Shown here: in pieces, positions 640-41,743 of the stretch | Layout: every line of letters begins with the position of its first letter | Numbering within the stretch: position 1 is the first letter of the stretch | Source: Neisseriaceae bacterium | GTDB lineage: Bacteria > Pseudomonadota > Gammaproteobacteria > Burkholderiales > UBA11063 | Assembly (NCBI GenBank): GCA_003963245.1 | Contig: RXJX01000002.1 | Coordinates: 1-64,000 of the forward strand | DNA: 64,000 bases | Reading direction: 5' to 3' | Notes under the pieces: generated by a model | The model's database searches: none | Seen by the model: the letters and a program-made list of their open reading frames with translations, nothing else | What the model was told of the DNA's origin: nothing | Program-made: the position numbers and the translations under genes

Positions 640-667
640 GCGAATAGTTAAATATATGCTCATAATA

Positions 668-780
668 TTTGATTCTTGGTCGCAAAGGATTGATAAAAAA
701 AGACAACGTAGTGTAAACAGAACTACTTAAGGAGTCTTTTTTGAAATCGGACAAAGTCCAAGATTCAAAGACGAAAAGTA
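668..780. repeat. Dispersed repeat, copy 1, with near-matching inverted ends
   Basis: About 113 bases match the sequence at 8993-9104 at roughly 85 percent by hand alignment. The ends are inverted copies (TTTGATTCTTGG at 668-679 and CCAAGATTCAAA at 758-769, one mismatch). An inner pair, AAAAAAGAC and GTCTTTTTT, makes a long hairpin-like, MITE-like unit. It lies between convergent genes and could act as a two-way terminator. On the minus strand it supplies the last codons and the TGA of the hydrolase gene. An AAGGAG followed by a TTG opens a short frame in both copies, of unknown meaning. Confidence 0.75.
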
Positions 781-1580
781 TAGCTAATAATTTCATCAGC
801 TAATTCTACCGCGTACTTATGCATAAAGAAATGCCCACCAGTTGGGTAACTAATTAGTTTGGAGCTTGTTAATTTTGCATGTAAATACCAACTTGCTTCG
901 GGCTTGGTAACCATATCATTCCGTGCCGTGGTGATTAAAACTGGCATACTAAGTTGTTCCAATTGCTCGGCTTGCTGTAACCAATTTTTGACAGCATGGT
1001 CTTGCAGCTGTTGTGCATGCTCATTATATGGATAAACATACCCAGCAATATGCAAAATTGATTTAGCTAAATATTTACGAAACTCAATACTAGGTAACTC
1101 AGAAAAAAATAACTCAGTCAATTTCTCACGATTTTCTCGTCCCGGATGCTCACGCAGATTACGCACCAAAGTATGTAAGCCGCCCAAAGTATAGCTATAG
1201 TCAGGCTGACTAGCAATCAACACCATTCCGCTAATTAAGTCAGCTCGTTCATAAGCTAGTGCTTGTGCAATAATACCACCCATAGACCAACCGCATAATA
1301 ATGGTTTATTTAATCGCAAAGCTTCGATAAAGTCAACAACGTCTTGAGCAAGTCCGTCCATCGAAAGATCATTATTTGACTCACTGAGCCCAACTCGACG
1401 ATTATCCGGTAAATAAACAGTAAATTTTTCTGCAAGACGGTAAATTAGCTCACTATTCCAATGAAGTAAGTTGCCAGAATATCCCACCAGCATAACTAAC
1501 GGCTGACCATTACCTAAGCTAACATAGCCAGTTTGACCATGTTTGGTTGTGACTATTTTATATTCTAACTCTTTAGACAT
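765..1580 (-). CDS. Alpha/beta-fold hydrolase
   Basis: A 271-residue alpha/beta hydrolase. The nucleophile elbow is GWSMGG with Ser near residue 98. A later NDMVTKPEAS segment is a candidate for the acid residue, and GGHFFMHK carries the catalytic histidine. The substrate cannot be told from sequence; related proteins include esterases and lactonases. I place the start at the ATG at 1580, behind AGGATAGGTGA, rather than at an in-frame GTG two codons earlier. The gene follows mfd by a dozen bases and is probably co-transcribed with it. Its last codons and stop lie inside the dispersed repeat, so the native C-terminus may have been changed. Confidence 0.85.
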   Translation of the reverse strand: MSKELEYKIVTTKHGQTGYVSLGNGQPLVMLVGYSGNLLHWNSELIYRLAEKFTVYLPDNRRVGLSESNNDLSMDGLAQDVVDFIEALRLNKPLLCGWSMGGIIAQALAYERADLISGMVLIASQPDYSYTLGGLHTLVRNLREHPGRENREKLTELFFSELPSIEFRKYLAKSILHIAGYVYPYNEHAQQLQDHAVKNWLQQAEQLEQLSMPVLITTARNDMVTKPEASWYLHAKLTSSKLISYPTGGHFFMHKYAVELADEIISYTFRL

Positions 1581-1592
1581 ATTCACCTATCC

Positions 1593-8928: not shown

Positions 8929-8992
8929 TTAAACTGTTAATATACTGTATTTTACTATAATAATCTTTAGTTTTTCACCCATAGTCGTGGTA

Positions 8993-9104
8993 TTTGATTC
9001 TTGGGTACGAAGTATTGATAAAAAAAGACGACGCAATGTAACAGAACTACATAAGGAGTCTTTTTTGAAATCCAAGAAATCCCAAGATTCAAAGACGATG
9101 AGTA
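8993..9104. repeat. Dispersed repeat, copy 2
   Basis: This partner of the element at 668-780 keeps the outer inverted ends (TTTGATTCTTGG at 8993-9004 and CCAAGATTCAAA at 9082-9093) and the inner AAAAAAGAC / GTCTTTTTT pair. One base near the middle is deleted relative to copy 1, and the inner GTAGT/ACTAC stem is lost. It sits in the tandem gap between the MHS transporter and the UPF0149 gene. It provides the transporter's last codons and TGA on the minus strand, just as copy 1 does for the hydrolase. Confidence 0.75.
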
Positions 9105-10360
9105 TCGAGTAATTTTTTCTTACTTAAAATCAACACTGTAATCAAACTACACGCTCCGGCAATTGTTAACCATAATGCTGGACTTGCTGGATTATCCGTA
9201 AAATGAATTAAGTTCGTCGCAATAGCAGGAGTGAATCCACCATAAATTGCAGTTGCAATACTATACGCAAAAGAAAAACTAATCGAGCGAATATTTGCCG
9301 GTACAATTTCGGTCAATGCCACAACCATCGCTCCATTATAGCCCGCGTAGAGCAAAGAAAACCATAATTCTACGACCAGCATATGATTAAAGGTAGAATT
9401 GTGCACTAACCAATTTAGCATAGGATACGCAGTTAAAATAAATAAGCTACTGAATATAATCAAGAGTTTCTTACGTCCTATTTTATCTGACAAAGCCCCC
9501 ATTAGCGGAAGAAAGATAAAATTAGCCAAGCCAATGCACATGGTAATAAAAAACGCTTTAGCGCTAGATAGGTGAATGACATCCTTGGCATAGGTTGGAG
9601 TATAGGCAGTAATCATGTAGAATGAAACGGTGGTTAGCATTACCATCATTGAACAGCCAGCGATTAAAGGAAAATTAGCCAAGGTACTTTTAATAATTTC
9701 ATGAATATTTGGGTGATGCTTAGCCTGTTTAAAACTCTCAGTTTCTTGCAAATAACTTCGCATAAAAAACACTACGGGAATTACTAAACAACCAAAAATA
9801 AATGGAATCCGCCAGCCAAAACTTGCCATCTGTTCAATACTTAATATTTCATTCAGTACAAAGCCAAACAAAGCACCACAAACTACCGCAAGCTGTTGCG
9901 AGGCAGATTGCCAGCTAACATAAAATCCCTTATGCCTAACCGGAGCGATCTCTGATAGATAAACCGAAACTCCACCCAATTCTGCACCAGCAGAAAAGCC
10001 CTGAATTAAACGCCCCAATAAAATCAGCAGCGGTGCAGCAACTCCGATCTGTGAATAATCAGGAGTAAAGGCAATGGTAAATGTTCCAAATGCCATTAAG
10101 CCTAGCGTTACTAACAAGCCACGTTTACGTCCATATTTATCAATAAAGCCACCCAATACTAGCGCACCTATCGGACGCATCAGAAACCCGGTACCAAAAG
10201 TAACAAAAGAAAGCATTAGTGATAGATAAGGACTAGAGCTTGGAAAAAAGCTTTTGGCAATCATATGCGCAAACATGCCAAAAACCATAAAGTCGAACAT
10301 TTCAAAAAAATTACCACTAGTCACATTAAAAATTTTAAACCACTGGCGCTGCGTTTTCAT
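9089..10360 (-). CDS. MFS transporter, metabolite:H+ symporter (MHS) type
   Basis: A 423-residue, twelve-helix transporter. The MHS subfamily is indicated by the N-terminus (SGNFFEMFDFMVFGMF), the loop 2-3 motif (GALVLGGFIDKYGRKRG) and GRLIQGFSAGAELGGVSVYLSEIAP. The loop between helices 8 and 9 has GALSDKIGRKK. Family members import organic acids such as citrate, 2-oxoglutarate or tricarballylate, or proline and betaine, with protons; the substrate here cannot be told. A weak promoter (CAGACA, 16 bases, TATAAT) lies in the gap before the gene. Its final residues, DTHRL, and its stop are encoded by the dispersed repeat. Confidence 0.9.
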   Translation of the reverse strand: MKTQRQWFKIFNVTSGNFFEMFDFMVFGMFAHMIAKSFFPSSSPYLSLMLSFVTFGTGFLMRPIGALVLGGFIDKYGRKRGLLVTLGLMAFGTFTIAFTPDYSQIGVAAPLLILLGRLIQGFSAGAELGGVSVYLSEIAPVRHKGFYVSWQSASQQLAVVCGALFGFVLNEILSIEQMASFGWRIPFIFGCLVIPVVFFMRSYLQETESFKQAKHHPNIHEIIKSTLANFPLIAGCSMMVMLTTVSFYMITAYTPTYAKDVIHLSSAKAFFITMCIGLANFIFLPLMGALSDKIGRKKLLIIFSSLFILTAYPMLNWLVHNSTFNHMLVVELWFSLLYAGYNGAMVVALTEIVPANIRSISFSFAYSIATAIYGGFTPAIATNLIHFTDNPASPALWLTIAGACSLITVLILSKKKLLDTHRL

Positions 10361-30166: not shown

Positions 30167-30257
30167 AATTACATTCACTTTCAAAAATTTAAATTAACAA
30201 AAATATTCAACACACAACTATTAATTGACTTATCAGATAAAAATCCAAGTCAATTTT

Positions 30258-41031: not shown

Positions 41032-41107
41032 GTCCCTATCGTCTAGAGGCCTAGGACATCGCCCTTTCACGGCGGTAACAGGGGTTCGAATCCCCTTAGG
41101 GACGCCA
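41032..41107 (+). tRNA. tRNA-Glu (TTC), copy 1
   Basis: A 76-base tRNA with acceptor GTCCCTA/TAGGGAC, anticodon loop CTTTCAC (TTC), T arm GGGGTTCGAATCCCC and encoded CCA. It is identical to the copy at 41577-41652. Confidence 0.95.
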
Positions 41108-41118
41108 CTATAATCAGT

Positions 41119-41194
41119 GGAGCGGTAGCTCAGCCGGTAGAGCAGCGGACTTTTAATCCGTTGGTCGCGAGTTCGAATCTCGCCCGCTCCACCA
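41119..41194 (+). tRNA. tRNA-Lys (TTT), copy 1
   Basis: A 76-base tRNA with acceptor GGAGCGG/CCGCTCC, anticodon loop CTTTTAA (TTT), T arm GCGAGTTCGAATCTCGC and encoded CCA. It is identical to the copy at 41668-41743, while the Glu-Lys spacers of the two pairs differ. Confidence 0.95.
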
Positions 41195-41576: not shown

Positions 41577-41652
41577 GTCCCTATCGTCTAGAGGCCTAGG
41601 ACATCGCCCTTTCACGGCGGTAACAGGGGTTCGAATCCCCTTAGGGACGCCA
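41577..41652 (+). tRNA. tRNA-Glu (TTC), copy 2
   Basis: Identical over all 76 bases to copy 1 at 41032-41107, with anticodon TTC and encoded CCA. The bases just before it (ACTATT) loosely resemble those before copy 1 (ATATAGT). Confidence 0.95.
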
Positions 41653-41667
41653 AATTTTTCTTTCTGT

Positions 41668-41743
41668 GGAGCGGTAGCTCAGCCGGTAGAGCAGCGGACT
41701 TTTAATCCGTTGGTCGCGAGTTCGAATCTCGCCCGCTCCACCA
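41668..41743 (+). tRNA. tRNA-Lys (TTT), copy 2
   Basis: Identical over all 76 bases to copy 1 at 41119-41194, with anticodon TTT and encoded CCA. It is the last tRNA of the array; no strong terminator follows before sodC. Confidence 0.95.

Follow-up and report, generated by a model that had tools for sequence, protein, structure and literature searches.

Why should two unrelated proteins end in nearly the same residues, each time inside a copy of the same short repeat? In the window (the whole stretch of 64,000 nucleotides analyzed here), the reading frames of an alpha/beta hydrolase and an MFS transporter, called by a simple script and not by a gene finder, run into the repeat and end there as ...IISYTFRL and ...KLLDTHRL, respectively, directly before the stop codon. 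A preliminary description of this DNA had pointed out the endings T-F-R-L-stop and T-H-R-L-stop and two copies of around 85% identity (668-780 and 8993-9104), with inverted ends and an inner AAAAAAGAC/GTCTTTTTT pair. Both copies lie at these places and are 85% identical to each other in a BLAST comparison; the endings, the inverted ends and the inner pair were found as described, but the true extents of the copies are wider (655-782 and 8981-9105). The repeat is very probably a MITE of the IS630 (Tc1/mariner-like) family that is mobilized in trans, inserts at TA and is purged where it lands deep inside genes.

Thirteen copies from the same genome, aligned with their flanks, outline a conserved unit of about 127 bp that runs from TATACTC[AG][AT]AGTATTTGATTCTTGG to CCAAGATTCAAAGACGA[AT]GAGTATA, in the middle of which A6-GAC and GTC-T6 flank the inner stem. 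The ends of the window copies measure around 25 nt, including the TATACTC-type tips, and form imperfect inverted repeats (TATACTC-N7-TTGA...TTGGAC) with TA borders. The features by which a MITE is recognized are present: a size below about 300 bp, the absence of a transposase gene, many dispersed copies, and terminal inverted repeats, the outer helices of which are 93-96% paired. With no gene of its own and with element-free sites in relatives, the repeat is indeed the small non-autonomous mobile element that had been suspected.

Table 1. Positions in the window of the two MITE copies, the genes that end in them and one element-free site.
Feature	Position	Strand	Remarks
MITE copy 1, full length	655..782	+	left end 655, right end 782, counting the TA borders; same left-to-right orientation as the family consensus
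Copy 1, left inverted end, TATGCTCATAATATTTGATTCTTGG	655..679	+	from inverted-repeat detection and TIR search
Copy 1, central hairpin, AAAAAAGAC ... GTAG/CTAC-type inner stem ... GTCTTTTTT	696..742		pairing kept across the genus
Copy 1, right inverted end	758..782	-	minus-strand TATACTTTTCGTCTTTGAATCTTGG encodes Y-T-F-R-L-stop of the hydrolase
Alpha/beta hydrolase gene	765..1586	-	last five codons and stop (TAC/TAT ACT TTT CGT CTT TGA) from the element
MITE copy 2, full length	8981..9105	+	tips drifted: TAGTC; GAT replaces TAT on the gene strand
Copy 2, central hairpin	9021..9066		inverted repeat, fold prediction, genus-wide pairing
MFS transporter gene	9089..10360	-	last codons D-T-H-R-L-stop inside the element
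Spacer between two ORFs, element-free	30203..30238		G014 carries a copy there (L213:1428-1550)

The element is repeated far beyond chance, because BLAST retrieves 21 matches from its own genome (G000; 2.82 Mb in 54 contigs) and the end pattern, with up to three mismatches allowed, occurs at 19 places, compared to none for a reversed control pattern. At least 23 matches to an HMM, 13 of them full-length, were found in the retrieved regions of this genome, and the whole-genome search that had been proposed thus did uncover further copies. Several are internally deleted and in one (G000:C39) the middle has been replaced. Within the freshwater genus Aquella (Neisseriaceae), 11 out of 23 genomes carry the family; the 38 genomes sampled from other families in the order all lack it, and phage and plasmid records gave no match. 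Exact matches to the ends in named genomes fall in MAGs labelled Neisseriaceae and Burkholderiales. As far as searched, the family is restricted to Aquella. A spread beyond the genus was considered for a single match on a viral contig, which was dismissed as chance (24 positions, E = 0.008). The median best match among copies reaches 99% in G009, 98% in G003 and 97% in G022, compared to 86% (maximum 91%) in the window's genome, in which the family is old and searches gave no intact partner. At three loci of G022 (L218, L219 and L225), element copies adjoin head to tail, as would result from new insertions into the TA tip of older copies. The stretch L010:3131-3157 is a mini-copy (about 28 bases; TACACTCAAAATATTTGATTCTGAGTATA) that adjoins a full copy, and the same is seen in G014 (L188).

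TA is the commonest border on either side of the 85 full copies (52 and 60, respectively) and occurs on both in 39; copies without a plain double TA have either drifted or belong to a subfamily whose left end is longer. At the hydrolase, the closest relative (G014) lacks the element and reads ...GAAATTATTAGCTA followed by TTTTCAATAG, with one TA. The window's genome reads ...GAAATTATTAGCTA followed by TACTTTTCGTCTTTGA...GAGCA and then TATATTTAAC; the sequence just beyond the element has diverged from that of G014, and the duplication is not letter-perfect. The double TA borders and the single TA of this empty site identify TA as the target that is duplicated. The reverse case also occurs, namely a copy in G014 that is missing from a window spacer (Table 1, last row). 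Insertions at RmlB and at L020/L214 are common to both genomes, and the L214 copy has since lost its middle. Relatives hence present sites both with and without the element, and from the reciprocal, shared and middle-less copies it follows that sites have been gained, inherited and decayed. Insertion exactly into the stop codon was rejected as a rule: the hydrolase was hit in the Tyr codon just before its native stop and RmlB in a conserved Tyr. What was earlier phrased as insertion at gene ends is more aptly seen as insertion at TA with subsequent selection.

Element-free relatives also reveal how the affected proteins used to end. The hydrolase ends as SYFQ in G014 and as FFN or FFQ in other relatives, compared to SYTFRL here; the transporter ends as SARIRNAI or SKTTNLAK, and a dehydrogenase-like protein as GKIVIDIP, GKIILKIS or GKIVINFNEVK. 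The earlier claim that unrelated proteins share a C-terminal tail derived from the repeat is therefore borne out, and the finding that could have overturned it, the same C-terminal residues in relatives that lack the element, did not turn up for any of these three proteins. They also contradict, for three of the four own-genome fusions, the extremely improbable notion that the shared residues are native and are overlapped by the repeat through chance, for which one can point to RmlB, as its native end in relatives (NYTxR) resembles the element-encoded YTQRI. The RmlB insertion itself (L047:1502-1601 and L205:1455-1579) is common to two genomes, with the tail YTQRI/YTRRL, and this tail is a chance repair of the C-terminus.

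A total of 108 element sides face the 3' end of a gene, of which 19 overlap the gene and 30 more lie 0-9 bp from the stop codon. These 30 out of 89 non-overlapping sides compare with 7% at random intergenic TA sites of the same loci (P = 1e-12), in line with the 3'-end bias proposed from the two window copies, and no excess was found for sides facing gene starts. Many copies lie in plain intergenic DNA or before genes, and most are away from stop codons. Among the 16 fusions that overlap a gene by at least 10 nt, the overlap is exactly 17 nt in 13, which encode Y-T-x-[RS]-[LI]-stop or a tail close to it. If shared insertions are counted once, 12 out of 15 use one frame (P = 3e-4 against equal frames), and 13 genes in four genomes have this common frame and a similar tail. 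The frame is fixed because the element end reads TAT ACT NNN NNN NTT TGA when TA opens a codon. An insertion at TA, with duplication of the TA, would thus let a TAT, TAC, TAA or TAG codon gain Tyr-Thr-x-x-x-stop from either end of the element, because TTGA stands at a fixed distance from the tip. Such an insertion in the last few codons would swap no more than a short tail and be tolerated, while deeper ones in genes would be purged; as a consequence, insertions would crowd at stop codons. At one locus of G022 (L225), a gene runs through one partial copy and stops inside the next.

Eight genomes were searched for transposase genes of the IS630 type (Pfam DDE_3). An intact gene of 354 aa is present in G009 (NCBIfam transpos_IS630; 199 bits, cut-off 100) and stops 12 bp before the 3' end of its element, TATACTCAATCAACTTGAAAGTTGGACT; the element is cut by the contig edge and its 5' end lies outside the contig. 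A degenerate IS630 element of 1.2 kb in G014 (L275:1018-2239) has both ends, TATACTGCTCGTAATTGAAATGTGGACT and TATACTCTTTTAACTTGAAAGTTGGACT. Remnants with similar ends occur in G000, G007, G009 and G014, and only one or more fragments of this transposase were found in the window's genome. A strict search for MITE ends at the IS630 genes gave nothing clear; a looser end motif did find matching ends, which have the same order and spacing as those of the MITE (TATACT[CG], N7, TTGA, then TGGAC). Beyond the tip, the MITE ends of G009 match IS630 ends at up to 16-17 of 22 bases, compared to a mean of 5.6-6.0 for 22-mers from the window with the element copies masked, of which about 1 in 100,000 or fewer reach 16-17. 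The ends of the MITE are IS630-like in this sense, i.e., similar and not identical. In a hybrid subfamily of G022 (L220, L226, L241 and others), the left end, TATACTGTTCGTAATTGAAAGCTGGACTAA, departs from the usual MITE end and resembles the IS630 5' end instead. The intact transposase and near-identical MITE copies are both found in G009. To judge from these ends, the IS630 transposase most likely mobilizes the MITE in trans via the common motif (TATACT[CG]-N7-TTGA...TGGAC). As the IS630 ends carry TTGA at the same distance from the tip as the MITE, the stop codon is probably a by-product of a transposase-binding motif.

The element is further characterized by its fold. In an alignment of 68 diverse full-length copies, 92.7% of the cells form a structure in which both the ends and the centre are paired. 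Changes on both sides occur in 28 of its 36 pairs, for a total of 241 cells compared to 69 in shuffled and 23-55 in slid controls; these cells are not independent, as the changes of a subfamily founder are inherited by many copies. The central stem, for instance, is AAAAAAGAC/GTCTTTTTT in G000 and G014 and ATAAATTGC/GCAATTTAT in G009 and G016. Within a single subfamily (19 copies of the G000/G014 type), double changes are near chance (7 vs 5.3), pair-breaking single changes outnumber pair-keeping ones (44 vs 24), and paired positions change less than unpaired ones (6% vs 10%). Because covariation is found between subfamilies and not in excess within one, the pairing is kept in multiplying lineages and scarcely or not at all in resident copies. 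This pattern agrees better with selection on the mobile lineage than with a function for the host at each site: the end-to-end fold is most likely kept since those copies that still fold would be the ones to multiply. Identity with a known RNA family was ruled out, as an Rfam scan of the window gave tRNAs only and no RNA family above cut-off at the element. Two neighbouring tRNA genes in the window (41032-41191 and 41577-41740) have equal scores and are apparently a repeated pair.

Two further explanations address the upkeep of the fold. Template switching during replication, which corrects one arm of a palindrome from the other and would keep it without selection, agrees with the appearance of paired changes in subfamily founders; yet it should act on resident copies too, and double changes are not in excess among the single copies of a subfamily, which leaves it improbable. 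An RNA role, in which co-transcribed copies would place a long hairpin at the mRNA 3' end, either as a substrate of RNase III or as protection of the message (as reported for Correia/NEMIS), appears slightly less probable again. It would account for the compensatory changes across the genus, for a predicted RNA fold that is more stable than shuffles and for the greater stability of one strand in 65 out of 68 copies. However, the corresponding strand test (168 GU to 72 AC) was discarded because its excess is carried mainly by three family-wide positions, double changes are at chance within the subfamily, and most fused genes enter the element from its right end and hence carry the less stable strand. 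On a par with this RNA role, and just as doubtful, is a mobile cassette of stop codon plus 3' hairpin, which would supply the gene it hits with an in-frame stop that does no harm and with a new RNA structure at the 3' end; element lineages sparing or tuning the host would then be favoured and the fold maintained by compensation.

The preliminary description had also raised a terminator role, and retention at gene ends as a two-way intrinsic terminator, with A6GAC...GTCT6 providing a stem and U-run on either strand, would be suggested by the strong 3'-end bias and by the T-run and stem of the own-genome copies. Terminator scans nevertheless called no terminator-like site at either window copy. 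The T-run is confined to some subfamilies and missing from the stem of G009 and G016 in which pairing is kept, so a stem with T-run is not conserved throughout the family; single copies lack a compensatory excess, and the location of most copies away from stop codons also argues against it. We consider this role very unlikely and retain the IS630-type MITE, inserted at TA and then selected, as the explanation.

By description, the Aquella element is most like RUP of pneumococcus, an AT-rich element of around 107 bp with ends like the resident IS630, a TA target, an end-to-end fold and stops in all frames (PMC2229807, PMC3049150). By analogy, the Aquella MITE appears to work like RUP with IS630-Spn1, although the host phylum differs and reports place RUP between genes and close to IS elements, whereas the Aquella copies crowd at stops with a fixed tail. 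Correia/NEMIS elements of Neisseria, in the same bacterial family, are comparable in size (107-155 bp), TA tips and fold, with a TIR of about 24 bp and an RNA hairpin (PMC2229807). They lie mostly upstream of genes and carry promoters (PMC10969869), while the Aquella element is biased to 3' ends and not to starts, and its partner IS is identified. Enrichment near gene 3' ends is shared with SPRITE, a small pneumococcal repeat near the 3' ends of convergent genes (PMC3049150); SPRITE is terminator-like with AAAA/TTTT ends, in contrast to the end-to-end fold and non-conserved T-run in Aquella. In enterobacteria, a 127-bp RU-1/ERIC element at a gene 3' end replaced the stop and added a C-terminal tail (PMC2759123). 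The rewriting of the gene end is the likeness here, and the difference is in the tails, which are long and open-frame in RU-1 and stop after five residues in Aquella. We know of no link between RU-1 and IS630 ends. Gene-end replacement by a small repeat was thus already known; the novelty lies in the host group, the partner and the constant tail of five residues, and a search of the open-access literature turned up no description of a comparable element from Aquella. The present case adds a resolved IS630/MITE pair from Neisseriaceae outside Neisseria. It is also a clean example, backed by element-free sites in close relatives, of a transposon end that rewrites protein C-termini with little harm, and covariation between subfamilies but not single copies offers a usable test of whether the benefit of a MITE hairpin goes to the element or to its host.

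Finally, a second, distinct MITE-like family of 107 bp with the ends TATACTCAAACTGATTCG...ATTGAGTATA was observed in G014 (L213:1563-1669) and, outside the window, in G000 (C32:129921-130024 and 131751-131857). It has 20 matches in the window's genome, 28 in G014, 10 in A. oligotrophica, 5 in G020 and 19 in G003, and in its tips it is similar to further IS630-type ends from the genus (L270, L274).
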